Shown: positions 1-10,426 of the stretch, piece after piece
Numbering within the stretch: position 1 is the stretch's first letter
How the letters are laid out: every line of letters starts with the position of its first letter
Virus record (IMG/VR): IMGVR_UViG_3300032245_000325
Coordinates: 1 to 42,961 of that record
Reading direction: 5' to 3' (one strand)
Source: a virus
DNA: 42,961 nt
Notes under the pieces: generated by a model
Database searches by the model: none
The model's input: only the letters and a program-made list of their open reading frames with translations
What the model was told of the DNA's origin: nothing
Position numbers and translations under genes: made by a program

Positions 1-132
1 CTTGCACAAGTGGAGACACTATTGCTAGAAGCAACTTGCGAAGGCGAGCAAATAGCGGGCACACGATGGGGTGACGAGATGTTTAACACACATGCGGAAC
101 TAGTGCAAATGGTTGACTACTACTTGGATTAA
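1..132 (+). CDS. C-terminal end of an unidentified small early protein (partial)
   Basis: The frame is open from the first base of the window to a TAA at 130-132, giving 43 visible residues. The stretch is acidic and probably helical at its start (LAQVETLLLEA), with no domain I recognise. The start lies outside the window. The promoter of the next gene begins 32 bases after the stop, the same compact layout as the rest of this arm, which supports it being a real gene. Confidence 0.6.
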   Translation, partial: LAQVETLLLEATCEGEQIAGTRWGDEMFNTHAELVQMVDYYLD

Positions 133-164
133 CACTACACACAACAGGGTTATTAGCACAGCAC

Positions 165-193
165 TTGACATTTGGTAAAAACTGTGCTATAGT
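165..193 (+). promoter_or_regulatory. Early sigma70-type promoter cassette 1
   Basis: TTGACA (165-170), 17-base spacer, TATAGT (188-193). The spacer contains TTTGGTAAAAA. A larger dyad, TAGCACAG (154-161) with CTGTGCTA (182-189), brackets the -35 box. It drives the gene at 221. Confidence 0.85.
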
Positions 194-220
194 ACACACT
201 TAAACACTAAAGGAGCGAAT

Positions 221-604
221 ATGCAAGCAACGACATTTAACGTAAGCGACAAATTAACTTTTGTAAGCAAAGAAGTAGAGGACGACACTACTAACACAGA
301 GTACAAGTGCAACGTAGAAGTGCAACTAGCAGGTGACAGCATATGGGACTGCGAGTTAGAGACAGTTACAGTTACAAGCATACACATTAGCGAAACAGAC
401 TACGGCGATGGCAGTGGCGACACTAGCATACACATTGCAGTTTGCTATGACGTAGACGGTGTAGACGGTGCTGAGGTAGAGGGCAGTTGGAGACTGTATA
501 CAGACAGCGGTTTTAGCGATGCGATTAGTGTGTTGCTGGGGACAGACGTTAACTTTACGGAACAAGGTATGCAAGACGACGGCTACGCAAGCATGGAATT
601 GTAA
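221..604 (+). CDS. Unknown acidic early protein, 127 aa
   Basis: The ATG has AAAGGAGC a few bases upstream and follows early promoter cassette 1. The protein is acidic and rich in Asp, Glu, Thr and Val, with alternating polar and hydrophobic residues that suggest a beta-rich fold. I see no signal peptide, membrane segment or catalytic motif and do not recognise the family. It has its own promoter and a terminator directly behind it (614-650), so it is probably monocistronic. It could be a host-takeover protein, but nothing in the sequence shows this. Confidence 0.8.
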   Translation: MQATTFNVSDKLTFVSKEVEDDTTNTEYKCNVEVQLAGDSIWDCELETVTVTSIHISETDYGDGSGDTSIHIAVCYDVDGVDGAEVEGSWRLYTDSGFSDAISVLLGTDVNFTEQGMQDDGYASMEL

Positions 605-613
605 TAACATTAC

Positions 614-650
614 AAGCGCAAGGGTCTTTGGTTGACACTTGCGCTTTTTT
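614..650 (+). terminator. Intrinsic terminator overlapping promoter cassette 2
   Basis: AGCGCAAG (615-622) pairs with CTTGCGCT (638-645), extended by A614/T646, and a run of T follows to 650. The loop contains the TTGACA -35 box of the next promoter, and the T run lies inside that promoter's spacer. Confidence 0.75.
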
Positions 651-660
651 GCGTTATAAT
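632..660 (+). promoter_or_regulatory. Early sigma70-type promoter cassette 2
   Basis: TTGACA (632-637), 17-base spacer, TATAAT (655-660): a full consensus promoter for the gene at 688. It is superimposed on the terminator of the preceding gene. Confidence 0.9.
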
Positions 661-687
661 ACACACTTACACTAAACAGGAGCCTAT

Positions 688-990
688 ATGCGTAAATTAA
701 CTAGTGCCCACATTGCACAAATCAACAAACTAATGTTTAAAACAACTAATAGTTATATAGACATTTTTTGCTTAACTGCCCCTATACGTACGGAAAACTT
801 TAGTATGTATGCAACAGACGTACAGCACAACATTAATGCACTTGTAAACTTTAATGCTACAAAAGACGTACAAGCGTTACACGATAGTATTATGTTGCAG
901 GACACACTAGTACGCGAGTATTACATTGACGTGCTCCGTTACATAGAAAATACTAAGTTAATCCCTGCAGACAACTACTGTTGCATTTAA
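688..990 (+). CDS. Unknown early protein, 100 aa
   Basis: The ATG is preceded by CAGGAGCC and promoter cassette 2. The protein has a mixed, probably helical composition with many Asn, Asp and Tyr residues and scattered Cys, including a CC pair near the end. No family is recognised. It is flanked by its own promoter and a terminator hairpin (1002-1030), so it is an independent transcription unit. Its short isolated layout is typical of phage early genes acting on the host, which is inference only. Confidence 0.75.
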   Translation: MRKLTSAHIAQINKLMFKTTNSYIDIFCLTAPIRTENFSMYATDVQHNINALVNFNATKDVQALHDSIMLQDTLVREYYIDVLRYIENTKLIPADNYCCI

Positions 991-1001
991 GCCACACAAA
1001 T

Positions 1002-1030
1002 GACCCGCCGGTTGTGCGGGTCTTTGTTTT
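1002..1030 (+). terminator. Intrinsic terminator overlapping promoter cassette 3
   Basis: GACCCGC (1002-1008) pairs with GCGGGTC (1016-1022), followed by TTTGTTTT. The -35 region of the next promoter lies in the loop and right arm. Confidence 0.75.
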
Positions 1031-1040
1031 ATGTTATAAT
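1012..1040 (+). promoter_or_regulatory. Early promoter cassette 3 (weak -35)
   Basis: TTGTGC (1012-1017), 17-base spacer, perfect TATAAT (1035-1040), followed by the usual ACACACTTAG leader. The -35 is degraded, apparently because it is shared with the terminator arm. Confidence 0.7.
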
Positions 1041-1067
1041 ACACACTTAGCAACAAAGGAGCAAAAA

Positions 1068-1316
1068 ATGGGTCAGTACGCAAACACAGTTAACGCATTC
1101 GCAATGTCAGCCGCTCGTGCTAAAGTTTACAATATGCAAAACACTTTGCAAAGTTACGGACAAACGTCTTATATGCTTAATGTAACAACTAACAAGTTTC
1201 GCAAAGACATAGAAGCAAAAAAAGTAAAGTTTATTGCTAAACTAGAAAAAGAAAAAATTGCACAAATGCAAAAAGAGATAGCACACTTACAAACAAAACA
1301 TAACCTTACAGCCTAA
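1068..1316 (+). CDS. Small basic coiled-coil early protein, 82 aa
   Basis: I chose the ATG at 1068 because CAAAGGAGCA lies just upstream and an in-frame ATG further back precedes the -10 box. The last 40 or so residues are Lys/Glu-rich with regularly spaced Ile and Leu (KFIAKLEKEKIAQMQKEI), a probable coiled coil. No enzymatic motif is visible. It may multimerise or bind a host protein through the helix. The family is not recognised. Confidence 0.75.
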   Translation: MGQYANTVNAFAMSAARAKVYNMQNTLQSYGQTSYMLNVTTNKFRKDIEAKKVKFIAKLEKEKIAQMQKEIAHLQTKHNLTA

Positions 1317-1336
1317 AGGGTTATTGTGTAGCACAG

Positions 1337-1365
1337 TTGACTTTTGGACTGTGCTATGCTATAAT
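1337..1365 (+). promoter_or_regulatory. Early promoter cassette 4
   Basis: TTGACT (1337-1342), 17-base spacer, TATAAT (1360-1365). A perfect 8-base dyad, AGCACAGT (1330-1337) and ACTGTGCT (1348-1355), spans the -35 and spacer, echoing the dyad at cassette 1. Confidence 0.85.
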
Positions 1366-1390
1366 ACACTTACACTAAACAGGAGCACCT

Positions 1391-1570
1391 ATGCTAACAA
1401 AACAGGAAAAATTGGAGCGCCTACAAATGGCGATTGCGTTGTTAATGGACGCAGACGCAGGCATACAAACAGCACTGGGAGACACAGAGGCTTGCTACGA
1501 CATACATTGTGCTATAGAAAGCGTGATAGACGATGTGCAAGACGCAATTAACGCAAAGGAGCAGGCATGA
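1391..1570 (+). CDS. Small acidic helical early protein, 59 aa
   Basis: The ATG follows ACAGGAGCACCT and promoter cassette 4. The protein starts MLTKQEKLERLQ and is acidic and probably all helical, with two Cys. Its TGA at 1568-1570 overlaps the ATG of the next gene (ATGA), so the two genes are translationally coupled. No family is recognised. The promoter, ribosome binding site and coupling make it convincing despite its size. Confidence 0.8.
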   Translation: MLTKQEKLERLQMAIALLMDADAGIQTALGDTEACYDIHCAIESVIDDVQDAINAKEQA

Positions 1571-1803
1571 TTACAGACTACAAGATTAAAAAGTGTATGT
1601 ACCTAACGACCTCTCAACTAGAGAAGGCTCTCAACTTCATGCATCCTAGGGATCGCATTAAAGATTCTAAGTTCCTGGGCATTACTAACGGCAAGCAGTT
1701 TTGCTACGAGATCCTCTACTTTGACGATAACATAGGCGAGGATGCCTACACTAAGATCTTTGTAGACTTAGAGGCTAACGAAGAGCCCTACGCGGACTAT
1801 TAA
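1567..1803 (+). CDS. Conserved-type small phage protein, 78 aa
   Basis: The ATG overlaps the upstream stop (ATGA), with AAAGGAGCAGGC as ribosome binding site inside the preceding gene. The N-terminus (MITDYKIKKCMYLTT), the central FLGITNGKQF and the ADY terminus resemble a small family I associate with T4-like phages, of unknown function. It is acidic towards the end. It is the second gene of a two-gene unit from cassette 4 and is followed by a hairpin at 1802-1822. Confidence 0.8.
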   Translation: MITDYKIKKCMYLTTSQLEKALNFMHPRDRIKDSKFLGITNGKQFCYEILYFDDNIGEDAYTKIFVDLEANEEPYADY

Positions 1804-1822
1804 CCCTATAGGCTGTAGGGTT
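1802..1822 (+). terminator. Hairpin after gene 1567, possible weak terminator
   Basis: AACCCTA (1802-1808) pairs with TAGGGTT (1816-1822). There is no T run after it, so termination would be weak. The next -35 box begins three bases later. Confidence 0.4.
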
Positions 1823-1824
1823 GG

Positions 1825-1853
1825 TTGACAAGTTGGTAAAACCATGCTATAAT
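1825..1853 (+). promoter_or_regulatory. Early promoter cassette 5
   Basis: TTGACA (1825-1830), 17-base spacer AGTTGGTAAAACCATGC, TATAAT (1848-1853). The spacer holds GTT-GGTAA-AAC, a small dyad around the recurring GGTAA loop. Confidence 0.9.
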
Positions 1854-1880
1854 TAGCACATACACTAACAAGGAACAGAC

Positions 1881-2156
1881 ATGATAGACATCACTAAAAT
1901 TGTAAAAACATACAGCGGTAAAATTGGCTGTATGTGTGGGTGCCTGGGCAAGTACAGTTACACACAAGACGGCGCTACAAACCACGGGCCCGGCTACAAT
2001 GTACAAGACAGCGTTAACGAACGCAGTGTGCGTATCATTGCAAAGAAGATACTTGCACATCCCAACGTAGAATGGCAAGACAATATTGCGTTTGTAGAAG
2101 ACCGCGTGGCAAATCGTATGCAGGCAATTTACTTTAAGGAGCAGACATGCAAGTAA
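1881..2156 (+). CDS. Unknown early protein, 91 aa
   Basis: The ATG follows ACAAGGAACAGAC and promoter cassette 5. An N-terminal CMCGC cluster (residues 17-21) could bind metal, and the middle part (NERSVRIIAKKIL) looks helical. The last ten bases overlap the start of the next gene, suggesting coupled translation. The family is similar in flavour to small conserved phage proteins, but no function can be assigned. Confidence 0.8.
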   Translation: MIDITKIVKTYSGKIGCMCGCLGKYSYTQDGATNHGPGYNVQDSVNERSVRIIAKKILAHPNVEWQDNIAFVEDRVANRMQAIYFKEQTCK

Positions 2157-2392
2157 AAGATCTAATTGAGCAGTTACAGGGCATGAACCCTGAGGCTGAA
2201 GTGCATTACGCCTACAACTATGGCGACCACTGGCGCACTGAAGTTGCCCCTAAGGTTGACCGTGTTGACGAGGGCGTTGTAGAGTTTAGCGAGTACCACC
2301 GTATGGACAAGATGGTGGACTATGAGGACTGCTACGACGAAGAAACGGGCGACTATCGCACAGACGTTCGCCGGGTTGTTGTACTCGGTTGA
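2147..2392 (+). CDS. Small conserved phage protein, 81 aa
   Basis: The ATG lies in the end of the preceding gene, with TAAGGAGCAGAC upstream. The sequence starts MQVKDLIEQLQGMNPEAEV and has a central GDHWRT motif. This N-terminal pattern (VxxLIxxLQ, then Pro and an acidic EV) is also seen in the product at 5331, so the two may belong to one family. The protein is very acidic. Its TGA (2390-2392) lies inside the TTGACA box of cassette 6. Function unknown. Confidence 0.85.
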   Translation: MQVKDLIEQLQGMNPEAEVHYAYNYGDHWRTEVAPKVDRVDEGVVEFSEYHRMDKMVDYEDCYDEETGDYRTDVRRVVVLG

Positions 2393-2417
2393 CAAGTTGG
2401 TAAAACCGTGTTATAAT
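2389..2417 (+). promoter_or_regulatory. Early promoter cassette 6, -35 contains a stop codon
   Basis: TTGACA (2389-2394), 17-base spacer AGTTGGTAAAACCGTGT, TATAAT (2412-2417). The TGA within the -35 is the stop codon of the gene at 2147. Confidence 0.9.
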
Positions 2418-2444
2418 ACACACTTAGCAACAAAGGAGCACATC

Positions 2445-2561
2445 ATGGGACCAGATGACAATTATGATTGGGAATTGGATGCAGGTGAGGACTTTGCCGC
2501 CGGCTATGACGGTCAGCCCGACGAAGCCCAAGAGTGGCACGATTTTGACCCTGATTGCTAA
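2445..2561 (+). CDS. Tiny acidic early protein, 38 aa
   Basis: The ATG follows CAAAGGAGCACATC and promoter cassette 6. The peptide is extremely acidic (about one third Asp and Glu), with Trp and Tyr residues and a C-terminal Cys. Such acidic mini-proteins can mimic DNA, but this is only a composition-based guess. A dedicated consensus promoter and ribosome binding site argue that it is translated. Confidence 0.7.
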   Translation: MGPDDNYDWELDAGEDFAAGYDGQPDEAQEWHDFDPDC

Positions 2562-2570
2562 AGGGTTTTT
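2548..2570 (+). terminator. Weak intrinsic terminator
   Basis: ACCCT (2548-2552) pairs with AGGGT (2562-2566), followed by five T residues. It overlaps the end of the 38-residue gene and sits just before promoter cassette 7. Confidence 0.4.
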
Positions 2571-2572
2571 GG

Positions 2573-2601
2573 TTGACAGCGTACCAAAAACGCTGTATAA
2601 T
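2573..2601 (+). promoter_or_regulatory. Early promoter cassette 7, spacer hairpin
   Basis: TTGACA (2573-2578), 17-base spacer, TATAAT (2596-2601). CAGCGT (2577-2582) and ACGCTG (2590-2595) form a perfect stem around the loop ACCAAAA. Confidence 0.9.
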
Positions 2602-2632
2602 TAAGGCTTACACACACTAAGGAGCATTTGAA

Positions 2633-3127
2633 ATGGGTACACGAAGCACTATCGCACTCGAGTTTGCAGACGGTACAGTTGAGCAGGTCTACTGCCACTG
2701 GGACGGTTACTTGGCACACAACGGCGAGATTCTTGCAGAACATTACAGCGATCCCTTTAAACTGCAGAAACTGATTGACTTGGGCGACTTGTCTAGTCTG
2801 AAGCCAGAGATCGGTGAAGCGCATCCCTTTAGCAAGTTTGGCTTGAAAGAAGAAGACCTAGACTTCAATGAGATGATGGCCCTGTACGAAAAGGCAGAGG
2901 CATTGGGTTGGTGTACATTTTACACACGCGATCGCGGCGAAGACTGCCCTGCTCGCAAGTACAAGAACGCAGACGAGTATTTTGACTGCTCACAGCAAGA
3001 AGAATACGACTACATTCTCCGAAATGTAGAGGGCACATCAACTTGGTTCGTGCGTTGCTATACTACAGACGGCAAGTGGCTTACACTGGCTGAGGCCAAA
3101 GCAACTCAAGCGGAGTTCACAGAATGA
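2633..3127 (+). CDS. Conserved phage protein of the MGTRSTIA type, 164 aa
   Basis: The ATG is preceded by TAAGGAGCATTTGAA and cassette 7. The N-terminus MGTRSTIALEF, then VYCHWDGYLAHNG and HYSDPFKLQKLIDLGDLS, matches a family I know as widespread in phage genomes and without assigned function. Several Cys, Trp and Asp residues are spread through the chain, but no catalytic motif is clear. It is the first gene of a unit of three overlapping genes (2633, 3124, 3389). Confidence 0.9.
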   Translation: MGTRSTIALEFADGTVEQVYCHWDGYLAHNGEILAEHYSDPFKLQKLIDLGDLSSLKPEIGEAHPFSKFGLKEEDLDFNEMMALYEKAEALGWCTFYTRDRGEDCPARKYKNADEYFDCSQQEEYDYILRNVEGTSTWFVRCYTTDGKWLTLAEAKATQAEFTE

Positions 3128-3396
3128 CAGGTTTTGAAAGCAAGCGGGCTTCGGCCCGTGACAAACTCAAGGAGCAGGGTATGAAGAAAGTTATCGTACG
3201 CACCGAATTGTATCAAGAACTTGAAGTGCCAGAATCGTGGGATCGATATGATGTCTACGACTTTTTGGCAGAGCATGAGTCGTTCCGTGAGGCCTTCCAA
3301 GGCGTCAGCAATGCAGATCAAACAGCCCGAATCGTTGACTTGGGCATCACAACCGAAACAGTAACCGAAATGGGTGAGGAGACCTTTGATGAGTAA
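3124..3396 (+). CDS. Conserved phage protein starting MTGFESKRA, 90 aa
   Basis: The ATG overlaps the stop of the previous gene (ATGA). MTGFESKRASARDKL is an N-terminus found in many phage hypothetical proteins, so I keep this start. An in-frame ATG at 3181 also has a very good AAGGAGCAGGGT site and could give a shorter form, MKKVIVRTELYQELEVP. The middle is an acidic helical region. Function unknown. Its end overlaps the next gene by eight bases. Confidence 0.85.
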   Translation: MTGFESKRASARDKLKEQGMKKVIVRTELYQELEVPESWDRYDVYDFLAEHESFREAFQGVSNADQTARIVDLGITTETVTEMGEETFDE

Positions 3397-3580
3397 GATG
3401 GCAGAATTGGACATGATGTCCTACGATATTGAGCAACTCTACATTGAGGGTGCCAATCCTGGAAGGATCGCTGAGATTTTGGACATCCAAATCGAAATGG
3501 TCTATGCATGGATGGAGATCAACGGTGTGGCAGAAGCGCCACAGGAGGTCTATGACCCGTTTGAAACAATCAATTCTTAA
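3389..3580 (+). CDS. Small HTH-like protein, 63 aa
   Basis: I chose the ATG at 3389 over the GTG at 3374 because TGAGGAGA lies at good spacing upstream. The segment YDIEQLYIEGANPGRIAEIL followed by DIQIEMVYAWM has the layout of a helix-turn-helix (residues about 11-45), like small phage HTH proteins. It may bind DNA and regulate the early arm. It is the last gene of the 2633 unit and overlaps the previous gene by eight bases. Confidence 0.8.
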   Translation: MSKMAELDMMSYDIEQLYIEGANPGRIAEILDIQIEMVYAWMEINGVAEAPQEVYDPFETINS

Positions 3581-3592
3581 TCCAAAAAATGG

Positions 3593-3621
3593 TTGACAAC
3601 GGACCAAAATCGTTGTACAAT
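3593..3621 (+). promoter_or_regulatory. Early promoter cassette 8, spacer hairpin
   Basis: TTGACA (3593-3598), 17-base spacer, TACAAT (3616-3621). CAACG (3597-3601) and CGTTG (3611-3615) form a stem around GACCAAAAT. The leader to the next ATG is unusually long, 61 bases. Confidence 0.85.
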
Positions 3622-3682
3622 TAGATATGGACGGTAAGGTGCTGTTCATATTTTACACAGACATTCACTCAAGGAGATTTTT

Positions 3683-4078
3683 ATGTCTACATTTAAAGTT
3701 GCAGGTGTTTCTAAGTTGGACGGTAAGTTCAAAGTTCGTTTTGCCAATGACATGCTTCGTGTCAAAGTTCTCGAGAAGAACAACCACACGCGGGTTGACT
3801 TGGTTGAGTTCGTTACCCCTCTTACCAAAGAGCAAGCAGTTGCTAAACTGATTGAGATGGACTTTGCCAAAGGCGATGCCGCTATCCAGGCTGCTCTCGA
3901 TGAGGCTTCTGAGAAGCGTACGGTTGCTCCTAAGGTTGCTAAGGCACCTAAGGCCAAAGCCGCTCCCAAGGCCAAGTCTAAGCCTTCATTGGATGCTATC
4001 GCCGCTCGTGCTAAGGCTACCAAGCCAGCAGTGACTAAGGCAGACGTTACCAAGCAATTGGAAGACGCACCTTATTGA
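3683..4078 (+). CDS. Basic protein with histone-H1-like tail, 131 aa
   Basis: The ATG follows AAGGAGATTTTT. Residues 1-75 form a folded-looking domain (MSTFKVAGVSKLDGKFKVRF...). Residues about 80-115 are almost only Lys, Ala, Pro and Val, with repeated KAPKAKAAPKAKSKP units like histone H1 or AlgP tails. Such tails bind DNA or RNA non-specifically, so a nucleoid-associated or DNA-compacting role is likely but inferred. The end is acidic. It has its own promoter (cassette 8). Confidence 0.85.
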   Translation: MSTFKVAGVSKLDGKFKVRFANDMLRVKVLEKNNHTRVDLVEFVTPLTKEQAVAKLIEMDFAKGDAAIQAALDEASEKRTVAPKVAKAPKAKAAPKAKSKPSLDAIAARAKATKPAVTKADVTKQLEDAPY

Positions 4079-4162
4079 TTAACCCCCTGCAGTGTGCGTA
4101 GGGGCAGTGCCAATAAGTCCTCTTCGATAACACCTAGCGGGGTATTCACTTCAAGGAGCGGT

Positions 4163-4381
4163 ATGAGCAGATTACAATTACATGGCAGACCTTATGTGGT
4201 GTTCAGTGCTAAGAACAAGGAACATCGTCGTTGGTTTGCAGATTTTAACAGGACGGGTGCGTGGGGCCGTTGCCCAGTTCGATTCGTAATTCCAGATGAT
4301 CACGGTGATTTGATTACCATGATCCAGCGAGAACTGATTCGGTTTTACGTGGAAAAAGAATTTGGCAAGATTGACAGTTGA
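4163..4381 (+). CDS. Conserved phage protein of the MSRLQLHGRPY type, 72 aa
   Basis: The ATG at 4163 follows TCAAGGAGCGGT; longer in-frame starts upstream have no ribosome binding site. The sequence (HGRPYVVFSAKNKEHRRWF, CPVRFVIPDDHGDLI) belongs to a small family I have seen in many phages, function unknown. No promoter cassette precedes it, so it is probably read from cassette 8. Its TGA lies inside the next -35 box. Confidence 0.85.
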   Translation: MSRLQLHGRPYVVFSAKNKEHRRWFADFNRTGAWGRCPVRFVIPDDHGDLITMIQRELIRFYVEKEFGKIDS

Positions 4382-4406
4382 CCTTTTGTACACAATACTG
4401 TAATAT
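4378..4406 (+). promoter_or_regulatory. Early promoter cassette 9 (divergent copy)
   Basis: TTGACC (4378-4383) with TAATAT 17 bases on (4401-4406). The -10 is weak and TATAGT at 4404 is an alternative at longer spacing. The -35 contains the stop codon of the previous gene. The odd palindrome ACTGCATTGCAGT (4414-4426) lies just downstream. Confidence 0.6.
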
Positions 4407-4447
4407 AGTATCAACTGCATTGCAGTATAAAACAAAAGGAAATGAAA

Positions 4448-4717
4448 ATGTTGAAAATCAATAAAGGCACAAAGACTCACAAGTTGTTCACCGCGTTGCA
4501 AAACGGTGAGAAGTTGACTGCATCACAGGCTGAAAAGCGTTTCGGTATCAAGAATATCGCCGCTGAAGCAAGCCGTATCCGTCAAGCAGGTTACGCTGTT
4601 TATGCCAACAGCCATGTTGCTGGTAACCATGTAAACGTTACCCAATATGAGATCGGAATGCCATCACGTCGCGTTGTTGCGGCTGGCTACAAAGCCATCC
4701 AATTAGGCCTAGTCTAA
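4448..4717 (+). CDS. Winged-helix-like conserved phage protein, 89 aa
   Basis: Two in-frame ATGs lie at 4442 and 4448. The second has the better distance from AAAGGA. The pattern LTASQAEKRFGIKNIAAEASRIRQAGYAV (split here in reading, about residues 25-53) resembles a winged helix-turn-helix in small phage proteins often called putative regulators. The C-terminal half holds a beta-rich stretch and IGMPSRRVVAAGYKA. A 13-base palindrome (4414-4426) in the leader could be its own operator. It is followed by a structured region ending in a strong terminator. Confidence 0.85.
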   Translation: MLKINKGTKTHKLFTALQNGEKLTASQAEKRFGIKNIAAEASRIRQAGYAVYANSHVAGNHVNVTQYEIGMPSRRVVAAGYKAIQLGLV

Positions 4718-4785
4718 TTGGTTGCTCCAAGTCCGGGGGTAGTGTCCCGGCCGGTTGAGTTGCTCCCTCAATCGTGTTAGTGTTG
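4718..4785 (+). other. Structured non-coding stretch with two hairpins
   Basis: Between the end of gene 4448 and the terminator at 4786 there are two further potential hairpins: CCGGG with CCCGG (about 4733-4750) and TTGAG with CTCAA (about 4755-4771). Together with the terminator they make a three-hairpin RNA of about 100 bases, a possible small RNA or 3' protective structure. No internal promoter is obvious. Confidence 0.4.
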
Positions 4786-4820
4786 GAAAGGGCCGCTCGG
4801 GAGAGCCGCCCTTTCTTTTT
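4786..4820 (+). terminator. Strong intrinsic terminator
   Basis: GAAAGGGC (4786-4793) pairs with GCCCTTTC (4808-4815), with an inner GCTC/GAGC stem and a short loop, followed by five more T residues. It separates gene 4448 from promoter cassette 10. Confidence 0.85.
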
Positions 4821-4822
4821 GG

Positions 4823-4851
4823 TTGACCATTCTGGTAAAAGACAGTATAAT
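4823..4851 (+). promoter_or_regulatory. Early promoter cassette 10
   Basis: TTGACC (4823-4828), 17-base spacer ATTCTGGTAAAAGACAG, TATAAT (4846-4851). The spacer has TCT and AGA flanking GGTAAA. Confidence 0.85.
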
Positions 4852-4873
4852 ATACACATACAGAAAGCACATC

Positions 4874-5272
4874 ATGCAATACTACATCGACGCAACACCA
4901 TTCGTAACCAAATACATCGATTCGCTCTTGCCCAGCATGTTCAAGCAATTGGGCTTGACCCGTAGCCGCAAGTTCCTGCAGATCAAGGTAGACTCCGAAC
5001 TGGAAGACAGCGGAACCTGTGTGCCATTAGAGGGTATTGACACCTACTTGATTGTGCTCAAGCCCAACAGAGACCTGCATGAGTTCGGTATCGCCCTAGC
5101 ACATGAGTTGACGCACGTGGCTCAGTTCGCTAAGGGCATCTTAAAGTTGACTCCCAAGGGCAAGAAGTGGTGCGGTAAGTTCTACGGAAAGAATGTGGCT
5201 TATTTGCAACAACCTTGGGAAGTGCAGGCCTTTAGTCGTCAGGAACTTATTTTCCGTAGGGCTATTGACTAA
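4874..5272 (+). CDS. SprT-like zinc metallopeptidase, 132 aa
   Basis: The ATG at 4874 is the first after promoter cassette 10; an upstream TTG start would lie inside the promoter. The protein has a HExxH zincin motif (HELTH, residues 77-81) and a PWE at 114-116 whose Glu is a likely third zinc ligand. This arrangement resembles small SprT-like phage metallopeptidases. The substrate is unknown; host or protein-DNA adducts are possible. No signal peptide, so it should be cytoplasmic. The ribosome binding site is weak (CAGAAAG). Its stop overlaps the next -35 box. Confidence 0.85.
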   Translation: MQYYIDATPFVTKYIDSLLPSMFKQLGLTRSRKFLQIKVDSELEDSGTCVPLEGIDTYLIVLKPNRDLHEFGIALAHELTHVAQFAKGILKLTPKGKKWCGKFYGKNVAYLQQPWEVQAFSRQELIFRRAID

Positions 5273-5293
5273 TTGGTAAAAAGACGTTACAAT
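5265..5293 (+). promoter_or_regulatory. Early promoter cassette 11
   Basis: TTGACT (5265-5270), 17-base spacer AATTGGTAAAAAGACGT, TACAAT (5288-5293). The TAA of the peptidase gene overlaps the end of the -35 box. Confidence 0.85.
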
Positions 5294-5330
5294 ACACACA
5301 TACAGAAACAAAACAGAAAGAGAGCAAGAT

Positions 5331-5519
5331 ATGACAATTACCGTAGCACAAATGATCGCAAAGTTACAGACCCTTCCACAGAACTTGGAAGTGGAAGTCA
5401 CTATGAACATGGAGTATCAACGCCCAATGGACCTAGATGACTTTGAAGTATGGACCGACAAGGACGAAGCGGGCGTGGTCCGCAAGATCCTAATGATTGG
5501 TGACGTTAACTATTCCTAA
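5331..5519 (+). CDS. Small conserved phage protein, 62 aa
   Basis: The ATG is preceded by a purine-rich AGAAAGAGAGCAAGAT leader from cassette 11. MTITVAQMIAKLQTLPQNLEVEV resembles the N-terminus of the product at 2147 (VKDLIEQLQ...PEAEV), which suggests paralogues. The rest is acidic. Function unknown. It is the first of a run of five close or overlapping genes reaching 6235. Confidence 0.8.
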   Translation: MTITVAQMIAKLQTLPQNLEVEVTMNMEYQRPMDLDDFEVWTDKDEAGVVRKILMIGDVNYS

Positions 5520-5529
5520 GGAGCAGACT

Positions 5530-5643
5530 ATGTTGAAATTGATAGGTTGGTGTACTGTAGTTTGGGCCATGTTCCACTTTGGTATTGCCCAACTGATTGC
5601 AATTTACTTCATGGTAATCCTTTCTTTCATCGCAGGAGTTTGA
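5530..5643 (+). CDS. Tiny membrane protein, 37 aa
   Basis: The ATG follows TAAGGAGCAGACT at ideal spacing. The peptide is almost entirely hydrophobic, with aromatic residues and a single Lys near the N-terminus (MLKLIGWCTVVWAMF...), enough for one long or two short membrane spans. It lies one base before the next ATG. It could be an inner-membrane exclusion peptide or a regulator of a membrane enzyme, with no direct evidence for either. Confidence 0.7.
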   Translation: MLKLIGWCTVVWAMFHFGIAQLIAIYFMVILSFIAGV

Positions 5644-5644
5644 C

Positions 5645-5857
5645 ATGGGATATCGAGTACTAGACACTGGAGACCGTATGCGTGACAACTACGGTCCACG
5701 CAAGGGCCTAGAAGGTCCATTTAACTTCTCAGGTAGGATCCTGTACTACGATCCTAAAGAGGGCTCCTACTATGATCCTACTACGGACTTCTATGTGGAA
5801 CGCACAGAGATGGACTTCTTGAACAACGAACTGATGAGGAAGTTAGACCGTGCCTAA
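5645..5857 (+). CDS. Conserved phage protein with a YYDPKEGSYYDP motif, 70 aa
   Basis: The ATG follows GCAGGAGTTTGAC directly after the membrane peptide. The block GRILYYDPKEGSYYDPTTDF (residues about 30-49) is a short motif I know from many unrelated phage hypothetical proteins. The chain is charged and soluble. Its end overlaps the next gene by eight bases. Function unknown. Confidence 0.8.
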   Translation: MGYRVLDTGDRMRDNYGPRKGLEGPFNFSGRILYYDPKEGSYYDPTTDFYVERTEMDFLNNELMRKLDRA

Positions 5858-6053
5858 GTTCCACATCTATACCGAAACAACCAAGTGGCCCGAGGGTGAA
5901 GGTGGTAACCATGTCTATGTATTCCTAGACAAACCAACAGGCCGTACAGCCAAAGCCATGGGATATGTTCCTCTAGGCAAAACCAAAGTGTTCCGATTTA
6001 AGGAACCACTGACACTTGACCTACGCGGTCGTACATTTGAAGCATTGCAATGA
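5850..6053 (+). CDS. Unknown small early protein with GTG start, 67 aa
   Basis: The frame opens with a GTG at 5850 inside the end of the previous gene (MPKFHIYTETTKW...). A basic, beta-rich composition is visible, with a Gly/Glu loop near residue 17. The stop TGA overlaps the ATG of the next gene. The double overlap supports translation by coupling. The family is not recognised. Confidence 0.75.
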   Translation: MPKFHIYTETTKWPEGEGGNHVYVFLDKPTGRTAKAMGYVPLGKTKVFRFKEPLTLDLRGRTFEALQ

Positions 6054-6235
6054 TACACATCCATCCTGACCTAAACGAATTCGAAGTCCTGGTTGTAGCC
6101 GATCACCTCAAGTCCAAGGGCATAGAGTCCTACACTCTAAGCAAGGGCAATGGTTGCATCTGGGCCTACTACGGTGTAATAAATGAGTATTACATTTTTG
6201 AGGCGGGTCATTTGGTTGACATCCAGATAGATTGA
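6050..6235 (+). CDS. Unknown small early protein, 61 aa
   Basis: The ATG overlaps the preceding TGA (ATGA). The sequence MIHIHPDLNEFEVLVVADHL suggests an alpha/beta fold. Its last codons carry the TTGACA -35 box of promoter cassette 12 (6216-6221), so coding and promoter functions share the same bases. Function unknown. Confidence 0.75.
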   Translation: MIHIHPDLNEFEVLVVADHLKSKGIESYTLSKGNGCIWAYYGVINEYYIFEAGHLVDIQID

Positions 6236-6244
6236 CACTATAAT
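6216..6244 (+). promoter_or_regulatory. Early promoter cassette 12, inside the upstream gene
   Basis: TTGACA (6216-6221), 17-base spacer, TATAAT (6239-6244). The -35 and most of the spacer are coding for the gene at 6050. The GGTAA element is absent here. Confidence 0.9.
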
Positions 6245-6274
6245 ACACACATCAACAGCAAAAAAGGAGTTGAT

Positions 6275-6586
6275 ATGAAAAAGGTTTTAATTGCAGGTTT
6301 GATCGCAATGAGTGCAGTGGGTTCTGCCCAAGCATGGGGCGAGCGTGAACAAGGCGCATTGGCAGGCATGGTTGGCCTGTGGGCATATCAACGCCTTAGC
6401 CAACCCAATGTGGTTGTGCAAAGCCAGCCACAAGTGATCTATCAACAGACGCAGACCTTGCCCGCTCCTGTTTACCAAACAGAGATTCGCACCCTGCCAC
6501 AGTATAGCCCTACCTATCCTGGCCCTAACGGTTGCTTCCCAGTCTACACCCAGCAGGGTCAATTTGCAGGCCAAATATGCCGTTAA
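6275..6586 (+). CDS. Exported protein with Gln/Pro-rich tail, 103 aa
   Basis: The ATG follows AAAAAGGAGTTGAT. Residues 1-20 form a clear Sec signal peptide: KK, then a hydrophobic core, then AQA as cleavage site before WGEREQG. The mature part has a short hydrophobic Gly-rich stretch and then a Gln, Pro and Tyr-rich region with two Cys near the end (CFPVY...ICR) that could form a disulfide in the periplasm. A role at the envelope, such as superinfection exclusion, is inferred from export only. Confidence 0.85.
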   Translation: MKKVLIAGLIAMSAVGSAQAWGEREQGALAGMVGLWAYQRLSQPNVVVQSQPQVIYQQTQTLPAPVYQTEIRTLPQYSPTYPGPNGCFPVYTQQGQFAGQICR

Positions 6587-6597
6587 AAGGAAACACA

Positions 6598-6810
6598 ATG
6601 AAACACCTAATCCTAATCCTAGCCCTTGCGGCTACCCAGGCATTCGCAGGCCCCTTCGATGAGAAGATTGCCCAAGTCGAAGCAGAGATTGCCCAACGAG
6701 AAGTAGCAATCAAGCAGATGCAGGCCGAGGGCAAACCAACCGGACGCTTTGAGTTTGTGGTGTGGCGTTTACGCAACGAACTACAGAAACTGAAAGATCT
6801 CAACGGTTGA
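6598..6810 (+). CDS. Exported small coiled-coil protein, 70 aa
   Basis: I chose the ATG at 6598, preceded by AAAAGGAAACACA, instead of a longer frame that lacks a ribosome binding site. Residues 1-17 are a signal peptide ending AFA before GPFDEK. The mature part is about 53 residues of heptad-like helix (EKIAQVEAEIAQREVAIKQM). It is 11 bases behind another exported protein, so the two probably act together in the periplasm. Its TGA lies within the next -35 box. Confidence 0.85.
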   Translation: MKHLILILALAATQAFAGPFDEKIAQVEAEIAQREVAIKQMQAEGKPTGRFEFVVWRLRNELQKLKDLNG

Positions 6811-6835
6811 CACATTGGTAAATCTGCGTTATAAT
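6807..6835 (+). promoter_or_regulatory. Early promoter cassette 13, -35 contains a stop codon
   Basis: TTGACA (6807-6812), 17-base spacer CATTGGTAAATCTGCGT, TATAAT (6830-6835). ATT and AAT flank GGTA in the spacer. Confidence 0.9.
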
Positions 6836-6863
6836 ACACGCATACACTAACAAGGAGCAGACA

Positions 6864-7250
6864 ATGGAAGCATTTAAGACCTGGGAAGAGATGAGCACTC
6901 TGGAACAGTATGCCTGCCAGTTCTGGGACATGTATAAGGATGCCTACGGCTTCCGCCCACGTCATGTTGACACCGCCGCTTGGACCCTAGCAGACTTCGA
7001 GCGTGAGTTTGAACAATTGGGTGCAGTGATCGAGCAGGAAGAGATCATGCGTAAAGAAGCAGAAGCCAAGTCCATGCACGAGTTTGAAATGCGTATGCTG
7101 AACCTTATGCGTTCTGGTGCTAAGGATCGTGAGATGGCCATGCGTTGGGTTCACGAGGCAGAAGGAAGCAACGGTGATGAGGACTACCTCTGCTATCTAA
7201 TTGGCCTGCCCTACGGTTATTTCCGTAAGGTTGACGGGTTTCCAGTTTGA
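6864..7250 (+). CDS. Conserved phage protein with YGFRPRHVD motif, 128 aa
   Basis: The ATG follows ACAAGGAGCAGACA and cassette 13. The pattern WDMYKDAYGFRPRHVDTAAW, then a long acidic helix, then GAKDREMAMRWVHEAEG and a C-terminal LIGLPYGYF is a widespread phage hypothetical family. No enzyme motif is evident. The protein is acidic and mostly helical. Its last codons hold the -35 of the next promoter. Confidence 0.9.
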   Translation: MEAFKTWEEMSTLEQYACQFWDMYKDAYGFRPRHVDTAAWTLADFEREFEQLGAVIEQEEIMRKEAEAKSMHEFEMRMLNLMRSGAKDREMAMRWVHEAEGSNGDEDYLCYLIGLPYGYFRKVDGFPV

Positions 7251-7259
7251 CAGTATAAT
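7231..7259 (+). promoter_or_regulatory. Early promoter cassette 14, inside the upstream gene
   Basis: TTGACG (7231-7236), 17-base spacer, TATAAT (7254-7259). A second TTGACA at 7247 is too close to the -10 to serve as -35. Confidence 0.85.
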
Positions 7260-7286
7260 ACACACATACACACTAAGGAGCACACA

Positions 7287-7478
7287 ATGGGAAAAAATTC
7301 AGCAATGTTTCTAATCATATCAGGCTTGATCATCACAATGGGCGGCCTGGGCGGCATTGAAACCAGCATCAATGATGAGCAGATGTTATCCAGTGGCATA
7401 TTTGCCATCCTAGGACTTTTAACCATGTATGCGGGCACCTTGGGTCTCCGCAATGCAGACTTTTACGATAGAGGCTAA
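7287..7478 (+). CDS. Small two-span membrane protein, 63 aa
   Basis: The ATG follows CTAAGGAGCACACA. Two hydrophobic segments are visible, at about residues 7-24 and 36-54, joined by a polar loop (ETSINDEQM), with a charged C-terminus. This resembles small inner-membrane proteins found in other phages, of unknown role. It is followed one base later by the ATG of the next gene. It lacks the features needed to call it a holin with confidence. Confidence 0.85.
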   Translation: MGKNSAMFLIISGLIITMGGLGGIETSINDEQMLSSGIFAILGLLTMYAGTLGLRNADFYDRG

Positions 7479-7479
7479 T

Positions 7480-7710
7480 ATGAGTAATACCTTTCAACCG
7501 GGCGTTCAAATCAGTTTGAACAAGATCAACGGCATGGAGATTTCTACTGTCTTGTTGCCCATGTTTAGCAATGGACCTAAGGTTTGGGAAACCTGTATTT
7601 TCTACGCCAAAGGTAACAGCAACGTGGTGGGTCGTTACACTACAGAAATTGATGCCATCAACGGTCACAATCGTTTGATGCAACACGAGTTGATGCAGGA
7701 AACTGTTTAA
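7480..7710 (+). CDS. Small conserved phage protein, 76 aa
   Basis: The ATG at 7480 directly follows the previous stop, with GAGG a few bases upstream; longer in-frame starts lie inside the membrane-protein gene. The sequence ISTVLLPMF..., then WETCIFY, then RYTTEIDAINGHNRLM follows a pattern I associate with phage hypothetical proteins. A beta-hairpin region is followed by a C-terminal helix. Function unknown. Confidence 0.8.
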   Translation: MSNTFQPGVQISLNKINGMEISTVLLPMFSNGPKVWETCIFYAKGNSNVVGRYTTEIDAINGHNRLMQHELMQETV

Positions 7711-7720
7711 AGGAACTGTG

Positions 7721-7975
7721 ATGATTGAGTTTACACTAGAAGGGCTCAATGCCCGTCAACAAGTCCTAGCCGACATCATGTGGGCATTGGAAGAATATGA
7801 TGATGTTGAGCGGTTCATTAACACCTTGCCCGACCGCGAAGCCTGCGAGTGCCACACCATTATCGAAATGATGAAGATGGCTCTTGTGGAGCAGGTTGCA
7901 CCTGAGATTCGTGAGCAAGAATCCCTAGCAGAAGCCCAACAGGTGTTGCGGAAATACAACACCAAAAAAGGTTGA
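7721..7975 (+). CDS. Acidic helical phage protein, 84 aa
   Basis: The ATG at 7721 follows AAAGGAACTGTG; a GTG at 7718 is less likely. MIEFTLEGLNARQQVLADIMW is followed by acidic helices and a CECHTIIEMM segment with two Cys and one His. Probably all helical and soluble. Function unknown. It is the last gene of the cassette 14 unit, and its TGA is inside the -35 of cassette 15. Confidence 0.85.
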   Translation: MIEFTLEGLNARQQVLADIMWALEEYDDVERFINTLPDREACECHTIIEMMKMALVEQVAPEIREQESLAEAQQVLRKYNTKKG

Positions 7976-8000
7976 CAGGTTGGTAAAACCTTGCTATAAT
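7972..8000 (+). promoter_or_regulatory. Early promoter cassette 15, -35 contains a stop codon
   Basis: TTGACA (7972-7977), 17-base spacer GGTTGGTAAAACCTTGC, TATAAT (7995-8000). AGGTT (7977-7981) and AACCT (7987-7991) flank GGTAA, the longest stem of this class. Confidence 0.9.
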
Positions 8001-8028
8001 ACACACATACACTAACAAGGAGCACACT

Positions 8029-8268
8029 ATGAAACTCAACGAAATTCAACTGTACAAGACTATTGGCACCATTCAGCGTTCACGTGACGAGGATGGCAAG
8101 ACACTCTACTTCTACACTCACAATTTCTTTGGTGTTGAACACGATTCAGACACTATCAAAGACGCCAAAGAGATGCTGGACTGGTATGAAGAAGACGCCC
8201 AAAAGATCCGTCAAGCCCTCCGTGTACTCCAGGGCAAAGGCTACAAAGTATTCAAAGAAATGGCTTGA
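8029..8268 (+). CDS. Unknown small early protein, 79 aa
   Basis: The ATG follows ACAAGGAGCACACT and cassette 15. A beta-rich N-terminal half (IQLYKTIGTIQRSRDEDGKTLYFY) is followed by a charged helix (AKEMLDWYEEDAQKIRQAL). It is single and independent, with its own promoter, and its TGA lies in the next -35 box. The family is not recognised. Confidence 0.8.
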   Translation: MKLNEIQLYKTIGTIQRSRDEDGKTLYFYTHNFFGVEHDSDTIKDAKEMLDWYEEDAQKIRQALRVLQGKGYKVFKEMA

Positions 8269-8293
8269 CAGCCTGGTAAAAAGACAGTATAAT
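8265..8293 (+). promoter_or_regulatory. Early promoter cassette 16, -35 contains a stop codon
   Basis: TTGACA (8265-8270), 17-base spacer GCCTGGTAAAAAGACAG, TATAAT (8288-8293). Confidence 0.9.
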
Positions 8294-8325
8294 ACACACT
8301 TCAACAACGCACTTAGGAGCAGACT

Positions 8326-8646
8326 ATGATTACAGCAGAGCAGATCCGAGCAGGCAAGGCCCTTGCAGAAACAGCAGGACGTGAGATGTACGCCCAAATT
8401 GGTGAGCGTGATGCTTGCGGTTTTGGTTGGGTTGACGTGTTTGTCGATCGCACCAACTCCAAGCAGGCACAGGAGTTGATCAAGGCAGGCTTCCGCAAGG
8501 ACTACAAACCCAAATGCCTGAGCATGTGGGATCCGGCAGGCATTCCTACACAGAGCATTTCAGTCAAAGAAGCAGGCGCACATGCTTACGCAGAATTCCT
8601 ACGCCAATTGGGTCTTAAAGCCTACGCTGGCAGTAGAATGGACTAA
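8326..8646 (+). CDS. Conserved phage protein with ACGFGWV motif, 106 aa
   Basis: The ATG follows CTTAGGAGCAGACT. The layout MITAEQIRAGKALAETA, DACGFGWVDVFVDRT, MWDPAGIPTQSISVKEAGAHAYAEFLR and a final SRMD matches a family I have often seen in phages of several kinds, always without function. The conserved Cys-Gly-Phe-Gly-Trp and the C-terminal helix are its hallmarks. It forms a single-gene unit under cassette 16. Confidence 0.9.
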   Translation: MITAEQIRAGKALAETAGREMYAQIGERDACGFGWVDVFVDRTNSKQAQELIKAGFRKDYKPKCLSMWDPAGIPTQSISVKEAGAHAYAEFLRQLGLKAYAGSRMD

Positions 8647-8652
8647 CTATGA

Positions 8653-8681
8653 TTGACAGGGGACCAGTTCCCCTGTATAAT
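8653..8681 (+). promoter_or_regulatory. Early promoter cassette 17, spacer hairpin
   Basis: TTGACA (8653-8658), 17-base spacer, TATAAT (8676-8681). CAGGGG (8657-8662) and CCCCTG (8670-8675) form a perfect stem around ACCAGTT, so the whole spacer is a hairpin. Confidence 0.9.
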
Positions 8682-8715
8682 ACACTACTTCAACAACACA
8701 CTAAAGGAAACACCA

Positions 8716-9588
8716 ATGGCTACCAAAGCATCCCGTAAACCTTCCGCTGTTACCAGCACCGTAATTGAGTTTGATACAGATGCTATCAAGCGCAAAGAAG
8801 CCGCTATAGCCAAAGAAAGCGATGAGAACATTCTCACTCGCTTGACTGAGCGATTTGATATTCTTACTGAGATGACTAAAGCGGTCAAGCGTGGTGACAT
8901 TCGTGCTATGATTGTATCGGGTCCTCCAGGAGTTGGTAAAAGCCACAATGTAGAAGCAGTATTGCAAAAGGACGGCCTGTTTGACACACTGGGCGAACGC
9001 AAGCCTCGCTTCGAAGTGGTCAAGGGTGCCATGTCCAGCATTGGACTCTACTCAAAACTCTACGAGTTCTCAGACTCAAAGAACGTACTAGTATTCGATG
9101 ACTGTGACGACATTCTGCAGGAAGAACTCAGCCTCAACATTCTCAAGGGTGCATTGGACTCAAGCCAACGTCGTTTCATCAGTTGGAATACAGACAGTCG
9201 CATCCTACGCTCAGAAGGCATTCCAGATCGCTTTGAGTTCAAAGGCTCAGCAATCTTTATTACCAACATCAAGTTTGAGCATGTACGCTCTAAGAAACTG
9301 CGTAGCCACTTGGATGCCTTGGAAAGCCGTTGCCACTACATGGATTTGGAAATGGACACCAACAGAGAGAAACTGCTTTGGATCCGCCAGATCACCAATG
9401 CAGGCATGTTGGATCACTTTGAGTTTGAGCCTGTAGTACGAGAAGAACTGTTGAACTTCATTATGGACAATCAGGATCGACTCCGTGAACTGAGTCTGCG
9501 TATGGTCTTGAAAGTAGCCCAATTGCGTAAGGCCATGCCTTTGCAGTGGCAAGCCTATGCACGTCAGACCTGTATGAAGCGCGGCTAA
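8716..9588 (+). CDS. AAA+ ATPase, 290 aa
   Basis: The ATG at 8716 follows AAAGGAAACACCA and promoter cassette 17; earlier TTG starts lie in the promoter. The Walker A is GPPGVGKS (residues 69-76), the Walker B VLVFDDCD (124-131), and a sensor-like ITNIKF follows at about residue 180. It resembles phage AAA+ proteins without assigned role in T4-like genomes. It may remodel a DNA or protein complex during early infection. It is the largest gene of the early arm and its stop overlaps the next ATG by one base. Confidence 0.9.
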   Translation: MATKASRKPSAVTSTVIEFDTDAIKRKEAAIAKESDENILTRLTERFDILTEMTKAVKRGDIRAMIVSGPPGVGKSHNVEAVLQKDGLFDTLGERKPRFEVVKGAMSSIGLYSKLYEFSDSKNVLVFDDCDDILQEELSLNILKGALDSSQRRFISWNTDSRILRSEGIPDRFEFKGSAIFITNIKFEHVRSKKLRSHLDALESRCHYMDLEMDTNREKLLWIRQITNAGMLDHFEFEPVVREELLNFIMDNQDRLRELSLRMVLKVAQLRKAMPLQWQAYARQTCMKRG

Positions 9589-9809
9589 TGCTACGCCGCT
9601 TGTTCCTATACTCCACCCTAGGGTTTGTGCTAGATGCCCTAGGGTGCCATGTCCAGGACCTAGGGTTCTGGCTTGTGGTAGCACTATTCTGGGCCGCAGA
9701 GCATAACACACGAGCAGAAGTCGTAGACCAATTGGACGCTGAACTAGAAGAGATGCGTAGGATTGCAGGACTAATAGAACAACGTAAGAAAGAACAACAC
9801 AATGACTGA
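9588..9809 (+). CDS. Membrane-anchored coiled-coil protein, 73 aa
   Basis: The ATG overlaps the AAA+ stop codon. The N-terminal half (residues about 4-35) is hydrophobic, with LG pairs every seven residues (TLGFVLDALGCHVQDLGFW). The C-terminal half is a charged helix (VDQLDAELEEMRRIAGLIEQ). One membrane anchor plus a cytoplasmic or periplasmic coiled coil is likely. The seven-residue period is mirrored in DNA as three CCTAGGGT words 21 bases apart. A spanin or holin role is conceivable but unsupported. It overlaps the next gene by eight bases. Confidence 0.75.
   Translation: MLRRLFLYSTLGFVLDALGCHVQDLGFWLVVALFWAAEHNTRAEVVDQLDAELEEMRRIAGLIEQRKKEQHND
9617..9666. repeat. Three CCTAGGGT words at exact 21-base intervals
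   Basis: CCTAGGGT occurs at 9617-9624, 9638-9645 and 9659-9666. The first is part of the palindrome ACCCTAGGGT (9615-9624). The spacing equals two helical turns and also seven codons, so it may reflect either a protein-binding array or a heptad in the encoded helix. Confidence 0.6.
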
Positions 9810-10044: not shown

Positions 10045-10054
10045 GGCGGTTGAC

Positions 10055-10336: not shown

Positions 10337-10362
10337 TCACATAGACTAATCCTCACCCGTAA

Positions 10363-10393: not shown

Positions 10394-10426
10394 AAAATTT
10401 TTTTGCAGTATTTTTTTGGCTGTATA

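Follow-up and report, generated by a model that had tools for sequence, protein, structure and literature searches.

Why should a promoter contain a small hairpin whose pairing is kept while its sequence changes? This question is raised by a 42,961-base virus record, IMG/VR IMGVR_UViG_3300032245_000325 (the window, i.e., the whole stretch of DNA that was analyzed), of which the promoter region 165-8681 was studied. It contains 16 promoters of the TTGAC..TATAAT type, all on the plus strand and located before small open reading frames (ORFs). The spacer is 17 nt long in 15 of the 16, and the promoter at 4378 is weak; a 17th promoter combines a weak -35 element (TTGTGC, 1012-1017) with TATAAT (1035-1040). 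The 15 promoters with the 17-nt spacer are strong and sigma-70-like, and presumably early. The original prediction had described hairpins between -35 and -10 in two classes, with the loops ACCA (class B) and GGTAA (class A), and had offered single-stranded DNA, supercoiled DNA, or read-through RNA as the molecule in which they form. The results described below indicate that the hairpins are probably stem-loops of RNA, formed where the mRNA of the upstream gene ends, and that they have come to overlap the promoter that follows.

The three class B hairpins are real, and they lie exactly where they had been placed (2577-2595, 3597-3615, and 8657-8675). In the fold of the window sequence their stems reach 7-8 pairs, because ACA of the -35 element and the first T of the -10 element also pair. 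For comparison, two protein queries were used to collect 159 loci (L054-L212), drawn from the best 80 each of 95 relatives of one query and of at least 594 relatives of the other, the AAA-ATPase. Together with the window the loci yielded 1572 distinct promoter contexts, 1491 of them with a 17-nt spacer; the hexamers were required by the search, and some of the contexts are chance matches. Promoters with 16- or 18-nt spacers, promoters without full flanks (1464 were kept), and near-duplicates (leaving 1195 and 574) were omitted.

At orthologous promoters the class B stems covary. Set A1 comprised nine of the 57 distinct spacers of ORF 3683, selected by loop sequence, and in this set 63 of 63 cells were paired. 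Double changes were observed in three pairs, a number equaled in 14 of 500 shuffles, and the covariation score (0.365 versus 0.150) was reached by none of the 500. Set A2 comprised ten of the 65 distinct AAA-ATPase spacers, selected by their start with ACAG; they form a different hairpin, whose loop contains the -35 element. In this case 87.5% of the cells were paired, seven of the eight pairs had double changes, and again no shuffle reached the covariation score (0/500). Set A3, seven of the 65 AAA-ATPase spacers, was the weakest of the three, being a one-register subset of the 12 spacers that start with GGG and thus partly selected by register. Its cells were paired to 96.4%, and 7 of 500 shuffles reached its covariation score and 52 of 500 its number of double-change pairs. 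Covariation was weak in A3. When all spacers were pooled, the column-pair analysis gave a weak signal, because the registers differ.

Arm permutation was used as an additional approach, and it was restricted to the 574 non-redundant promoters because complement controls exceed the shuffles in the redundant set. With 5-mers the numbers were 29 versus 9.8 for the spacer and 42 versus 11.7 around -35, and with 4-mers they were 90 versus 56.0 and 71 versus 32.7, respectively. The 4-mer controls for the spacer type were near expectation (complement 64 versus 54.9, reverse 69 versus 57.3). These results bear on the idea that the palindromes between -35 and -10 are operators, which would be bound by a phage or host regulator. 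A recurring arm does exist in some phages (GGGGATC..GATCCCC in phage RB49, GGG..CCC in locus L132), but no conserved arm sequence of a spacer operator of the MerR-like or repressor kind was found. Instead, the arms differ among the promoters of one genome (CAGCGT, CAACG, and CAGGGG) and covary at orthologous sites, and, as shown below, the register slides with the stop codon and RNA tetraloops are biased to one strand. A protein operator is therefore very improbable, and the earlier argument that covariation speaks for a hairpin and not for a conserved operator holds for class B.

The number of hairpins was far above that in shuffled sequences. Stems of at least 5 bp within the spacer were present in 74 of 1310 distinct spacers, compared with 14.4 expected (standard deviation 3.9, maximum 28, 100 column shuffles), and in 30 of the 584 spacers that are more than four mismatches apart (7.0 expected, maximum 16). 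Spacer hairpins with 6 bp or more occurred in 87 of 1195 promoters. For stems of this length an excess was also seen over approximately 40 bases before -35 and over ten bases beginning with the -10 element (56 versus 16), and from +10 on the numbers were at or below expectation, with the exception of the edge bin. According to their position the hairpins were assigned to type I (upstream of -35), type II (around -35), type III (in the spacer), or type IV (around -10), and one promoter may count in several types. Type IV showed no excess (78 versus 62.8 and 20 versus 18.0). The promoter pattern TTGACAGGGGN4-9CCCCT had at least 123 matches; among the matches listed, a -10 element was found at 17 nt in 52 cases, at 15, 16, 18, or 19 nt in no case, and not at all in 71 cases. 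An origin of the hairpins by chance and spacer base preferences is extremely improbable, as their numbers exceed those in shuffles that preserve column or local composition. The class B hairpins contradict this reading; for class A, in which the stems have 3 bp and GGTAAA is common without structure, it is retained.

The loops indicate in which molecule the hairpins form. Loops of four bases closed by a stem of 4 bp or more comprised 23 GNRA loops (1.5 expected), 6 UNCG loops (0.3), and 46 others (26.3), i.e., 29 of 75 were GNRA or UNCG, with about 2 expected. The reverse complements of the two classes were absent (0.6 each expected), and on 3-bp stems they occurred below expectation (2 versus 4.1 and 1 versus 2.2). 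Among 184 strong helices at any position, 23 had a GNRA, 6 a UNCG, and 1 a reverse-complement GNRA loop. A scan of viral contigs for TTGACAGGGG..CCCC, which partly overlaps the loci L054-L212, revealed 40 distinct promoters with -10 at 17 nt among the matches listed, and their loops included TATA (6), GAAA, TTCG, and GCAA (4 each), and GCGA (1). UNCG loops are special in RNA, and a tetraloop bias on one strand speaks for an RNA transcribed in the same direction as the promoter, i.e., for the upstream transcript. The higher stability of the sense than of the antisense sequence (173 versus 55) was not used, because the sense sequences are rich in G+T.

The loop ACCA, which had been described as conserved, was indeed more frequent in hairpin spacers than in other spacers (15% versus 6%; CCAAA 25% versus 11%), but the loops vary widely across the lineage. 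For example, the pairing of the hairpin 8656-8676 is preserved in several orthologues with the loops GCGA, GCAA, GAGA, TACG, and others. Pairing of ACCAAAA with TTTTGGT before -35 would form a possible pseudoknot, and the association of the two had an odds ratio of 2.3-4.1 in the non-redundant set.

The position of the hairpins was found to depend on the gap, i.e., the distance from the upstream stop codon to the -35 element, which was determined for the 1026 of 1195 promoters with a called upstream ORF (169 had none). Spacer hairpins were concentrated at gaps of 0-14 nt (58/291, shuffled 3.0), compared with 3/87 (0.3) at 15-24, 0/82 (0.8) at 25-44, and 6/154 (1.0) at 45-150. For hairpins around -35 the values in the same four gap classes were 46/291 (21.6), 46/87 (7.5), 30/82 (7.2), and 19/154 (12.8), and for upstream hairpins they were 32/291 (14.1), 28/87 (3.6), 33/82 (4.9), and 50/154 (7.8). 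Of 212 strong helices in a fixed region at gaps of 0-60, 70.3% start 3-15 nt past the stop codon. When the gaps were permuted among the promoters, the mean was 25.7% and the maximum 35.4%, and none of 2000 permutations reached the observed value. When the search was begun at the stop codon, a strong helix was found in 184 of 486 promoters versus 12 in shuffles. For gaps of up to 35 (n=152) the helix began at a median distance of 9 nt past the stop. Even among the shortest gaps, stems begin farther from the stop codon as the gap grows (medians 6, 10, and 12), because the fixed hexamers limit the possible positions. The fold z-score was -1.9 at gaps of 10-44, -0.8 at 0-9, and -0.1 to -0.4 otherwise, including promoters with an overlapping upstream gene or without an ORF. 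Also within the window the promoters behind a stop codon were more structured than the ORF-overlapped ones (9 versus 8, p=0.0055). The dependence between spacer and upstream hairpins was visible only after sorting by the gap, and a Fisher test revealed no mutual exclusion of the two (p 0.39 and 0.44). Likewise, the gaps of promoters with a spacer hairpin did not differ from those of the other promoters (p 0.66), because the latter include overlapping and distant genes.

This placement is hard to reconcile with a hairpin that acts as DNA. The promoters of the phage N4 virion RNA polymerase contain a small hairpin near the start, which has a constant position with respect to it and is required for recognition. 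The window also has small hairpins near the start site, some of them between -35 and -10 and covarying, and a small excess was seen even without an upstream ORF (4/169 versus 1.0). A DNA hairpin or cruciform might thus be read by an RNA polymerase as in N4, or it might tune sigma-70 opening. However, the boxes are those of canonical sigma-70 promoters, nearly always with the 17-nt spacer, and the great majority of promoters have no spacer hairpin of 6 bp. In addition, the stem follows the upstream stop codon and is not fixed to the start site, folds differ little in stability from shuffles at promoters with an overlapping upstream gene or without an ORF, and the UNCG loops point to RNA. An N4-like or other DNA hairpin is therefore very unlikely, and of the three options offered originally it is read-through RNA that is supported by the tetraloop bias and by the stop-codon placement.

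The hairpins probably arise as follows. In the presumably early region a sigma-70 promoter precedes many of the small genes, and hardly any space is left between the genes; for this reason the stem-loop of one gene would overlap the promoter of the next. A stem that starts about 9 nt past the stop codon would be just clear of the terminating ribosome. The distance from the stop codon to -35 would set the place of the stem-loop, either upstream of -35, around -35 with this element as the loop, or in the 17-nt spacer, and an upstream gene running into the promoter would leave little excess structure. Selection would preserve the pairing, often together with a stable RNA loop (GNRA, UNCG), and not the stem sequence, which would result in covariation. 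The stem-loop would end or cap the upstream transcript. Where a T-run is present this could be intrinsic termination, and otherwise the stem-loop may terminate transcription in a non-canonical way or stop 3' exonucleases. Judged from the sequence, termination is plausible at 614-650, 1002-1030, and 4786-4820, where a T-run follows; of the three, only 1002-1030 was flagged by a terminator scan.

Several observations weigh against this explanation. The upstream ORFs were called automatically, and spacer hairpins were also in excess with overlapping genes (16/412, 4.0 expected) and, as mentioned, without an upstream ORF. Upstream hairpins were found in 90 of 581 promoters of the overlap and no-ORF classes (30.7 expected; 27, 22, and 41 versus about 10 each), and the counts in the no-ORF and long-overlap classes may be lowered by chance promoter matches. 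By the criteria used, 23-65% of the promoters at gaps of 0-44 have no hairpin. The standard deviation of the stem start was 5.1 nt from the stop codon and 9.9 nt from -10, but seven shuffled helices matched this (2.6 and 7.6), and thus it proves little. In the arm permutation the complement control of the type II 4-mers was raised (37 versus 21.3), in contrast to the reverse control (26 versus 26.4). A strand test of G.T versus A.C was suggestive in type III only (14 versus 3). In a bacterial control of 119 spacers among the matches listed, 5-bp stems occurred five times (shuffle mean 2.2, maximum 7) and 6-bp stems twice (shuffle mean 0.3), which equals the shuffle maximum. No difference in rate from the phages was seen; this control is too small to be separated from the phages.

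The last point of this kind concerns the T-runs. At least five T in the 8 nt after the stem were present in 8/53 hairpins of type I, 2/29 of type II, 0/55 of type III, and 4/47 mixed ones (14/184). As 170 of the 184 strong hairpins lack five T in the next 8 bases, 3'-end protection or non-canonical termination is a serious rival. In this branch of the explanation the hairpin would block exonucleases or guide processing without termination, and would either protect trimmed 3' ends or label a site in the AU-rich -10 region for cleavage by RNase E. The general lack of a U-tract, the many stable tetraloops, and the order of a stem about 9 nt past the stop followed by UAUAAU are in line with it, but good T-runs exist at 614-650 and 4786-4820, and stem-loops of a similar kind in T4-like phages (see below) have reportedly been described as terminators. 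A role without termination is possible, but we do not regard it as probable.

If the stem-loop did end the upstream transcript, the host RNA polymerase would be on the next promoter at that moment, and the enzyme might be handed directly to the next gene. After hairpin-dependent termination, bacterial RNA polymerase can remain bound to the DNA and start again from the closest promoter (PMC11347151). Such relay promoters are unlikely; if they existed, one polymerase would transcribe the single-gene units of the region one after the other.

Composite elements of this kind have a counterpart in the promoter-early stem-loop (PeSL). Papers by Arbiol (2010) and Comeau (2014) reportedly describe PeSL cassettes of RB49 and phi1, in which an early promoter is combined with a stem-loop that is said to act as a transcription terminator; such cassettes are also reported to mediate the modular shuffling of genes by recombination. 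In RB49, which we take to be the type phage of PeSL, 10 GC-rich spacer hairpins were found among 53 promoter-like sites, nine of them at gaps of 5-13 and one at 118 (an automatic criterion gave 14 spacer hairpins, of which the other four were AT-rich or mixed). Thus, in both cases an early sigma-70 promoter is fused with a stem-loop between small co-directional genes, and RB49 has the same geometry and rule. However, the RB49 spacer hairpins are mostly near one sequence (GGGGATC..GATCCCC), as expected of homologous cassettes, whereas the window stems all differ, with the pairing kept, and the hairpin slides through three positions. The window element is probably a variant of the composite PeSL promoter/stem-loop of T4-like phages. 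In RB49 it was also observed that the -10 element of four promoter-like sites (L219-L221) is wholly or partly in a hairpin loop, e.g., AAGGGAGATTCTC-TATAAT-GGGAGTCTCCCTT followed by TTC; hairpins of this geometry are not in excess in the lineage of the window.

PeSL cassettes are discussed in two citing papers (PMC4503421 and PMC3950731). In the latter the authors liken to PeSLs a conserved TATA-like motif with an inverted repeat that precedes many ORFs of the haloarchaeal virus HGTV-1; these are archaeal TATA-like promoters. A survey of T4-like genomes including RB49 from 2006 describes early promoters and terminators, and a search of its text for the terms hairpin, palindrome, stem, and inverted repeat gave no match (PMC1524935). 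The sliding rule was absent from the titles and abstract openings of the papers listed on hairpins or terminators overlapping phage promoters, a search that left most subscription papers outside. With intrinsic terminators the hairpins share the GC-rich stem soon after the stop codon and, at some window sites, the T-run, but most hairpins of the window lineage lack a U-tract and many overlap the next promoter.

The element appears to be an extreme form of a space-saving layout already known from T4 relatives. The terminase of the window shares 53% identity with that of Pseudomonas phage PA5oct, and window proteins match RecA, DnaB_C, and a helicase (as well as UvsW_N, under its cut-off) in Pfam, so that the window is inferred to be a member of the large T4-superfamily phages. 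According to the layout rule, for which there are hundreds of natural examples, a 3'-end hairpin holds its distance from the stop codon and therefore moves along the next promoter when the gap becomes shorter. The rule accounts for palindromes in the promoter spacers of phages with no need for a new polymerase or regulator, it adds an uncultured lineage to the cultured T4-like phages in which promoter-stem-loop units are known, and it provides natural parts for studying terminator-promoter overlap and polymerase handover. It also calls for caution, since covariation in a promoter spacer may report the RNA of the upstream gene and not the promoter.

Class A did not hold as a hairpin class. Its stems have 3 bp, with the exception of AGGTT/AACCT (7977-7991), and they mostly reflect a sequence preference. 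Two of its positions were one base off and have been corrected, i.e., GTTGGTAAAAC is at 1832-1842 and ATTGGTAAAT at 6814-6823. Class A hairpins were rejected because GGTAAA is not enriched in hairpin spacers (11%, versus 15% of the other spacers) and is frequent in promoters with little structure. It was found in 22% of the promoters in which the stop codon lies in the -35 element, which have little structure, in 13-15% at gaps of 0-24, and in 3% at longer overlap. An A-rich center is a general preference of all spacers. In five -35 elements of the window (2389, 4378, 6807, 7972, and 8265) the TGA within TTGACA or TTGACC terminates the upstream ORF (gap -4), and the stop is at a gap of -5 to -1 in 199 of the 1026 related promoters with an upstream ORF.

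Further hairpins are present at other window promoters, and all features are compiled in Table 1. The z-scores were calculated in a fixed segment per promoter with 200 shuffles each. The hairpin 4786-4820 is partly outside this segment (z +1.0 for that promoter), and the terminator scan gave no match to it. The hairpin 614-650 was also missed by the scan, which was limited to loops of up to 8 nt and yielded 13 sites in 9.6 kb versus 8.8 in shuffles.

Table 1. Hairpins, promoters, and genes in the window. Gap, distance from the upstream stop codon to -35; z, fold z-score, followed by the number of equally stable shuffles.
Feature	Position	Strand	Context	Evidence
Hairpin around -35 (type II), TAGCACAG / 20-nt loop with -35 / CTGTGCTA	154-189	+	extends into -10 (188-193)	sequence, fold; z -1.5, 14/200
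Intrinsic-terminator-like hairpin (type II), AAGCGCAAG / loop with TTGACA / CTTGCGCTT, then T-run in spacer	614-650	+	gap 27 nt	z -3.4, 2/200
Terminator GACCCGC..GCGGGTC with T-rich tail	1002-1030	+	overlaps weak -35 promoter 1012-1017/1035-1040; gap 21	terminator scan; z -3.1, approximate (calculated with -35 at 1007, a shift of five bases)
Hairpin around -35 (type II), GTAGCACAG / TTGACTTTTGGA / CTGTGCTAT	1328-1357	+	gap 20 nt	fold; z -5.3, 0/200
Hairpin upstream of -35 (type I), AACCCTA..TAGGGTT	1802-1822	+	before promoter 1825-1853; overlaps upstream stop 1801-1803	fold; z -2.9, 1/200
Class A promoter, no convincing hairpin; likewise 6807, 7972, 8265	2389-2417	+	TGA of upstream ORF within TTGACA	z -1.2; +0.7 at 6807, -1.0 at 7972, -1.3 at 8265
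Spacer hairpin (type III), ACAGCGT / loop ACCAAAA / ACGCTGT	2576-2596	+	-35 2573-2578, -10 2596-2601; upstream stop 11 nt before -35	sequence, fold; z -2.9, 0/200
Spacer hairpin (type III), ACAACG(G) / ACCAAAA / (T)CGTTGT, one G.U pair	3596-3616	+	promoter of ORF 3683-4078; gap 12 nt	z -2.0, 8/200
Terminator-like hairpin (type I), GAAAGGGC-c-GCTC / GGGA / GAGC-c-GCCCTTTC with TTTTT	4786-4820	+	adjoins -35 at 4823	fold
Spacer hairpin (type III), ACAGGGGA / CCAGT / TCCCCTGT	8656-8676	+	AAA-ATPase gene promoter; gap 6 nt	z -1.6, 14/200
AAA-ATPase gene	8716-9588	+	query for orthologous promoters	weak Pfam matches AAA_16 and AAA, under curated cut-offs

An Rfam search of window positions 1-12000 revealed nothing relevant, with one sub-threshold match outside the promoter region. 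Class-specific promoter patterns were also searched in viral contigs, and the 32 and 15 stretches obtained were apparently unrelated single sites. A separate group of contigs (L256, L296, L302, L307, L315, and L343) contains TTGACAGGGGTATACCCC, a perfect palindrome with the loop TATA, before a weak TATATT or TATACT; it is probably another element.

The 5' leader of ORF 3683 has a hairpin of its own directly after -10 (3623-3653, 14 pairs, four of them G.U). Many of the 40 leaders that were inspected from 57 orthologous ones likewise have a hairpin, with changing stems and often with GCGAAATAGTTCGC or GGGAAATGGTTCCC in the middle, an observation made without a shuffle control. The hairpin resembles a stem-loop at the 5' end of that gene's own message. 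Lastly, the small ORF 4442-4717, which lies between two promoters, matches the winged helix-turn-helix family HTH_39 above the curated cut-off, and its product is possibly an early regulator.

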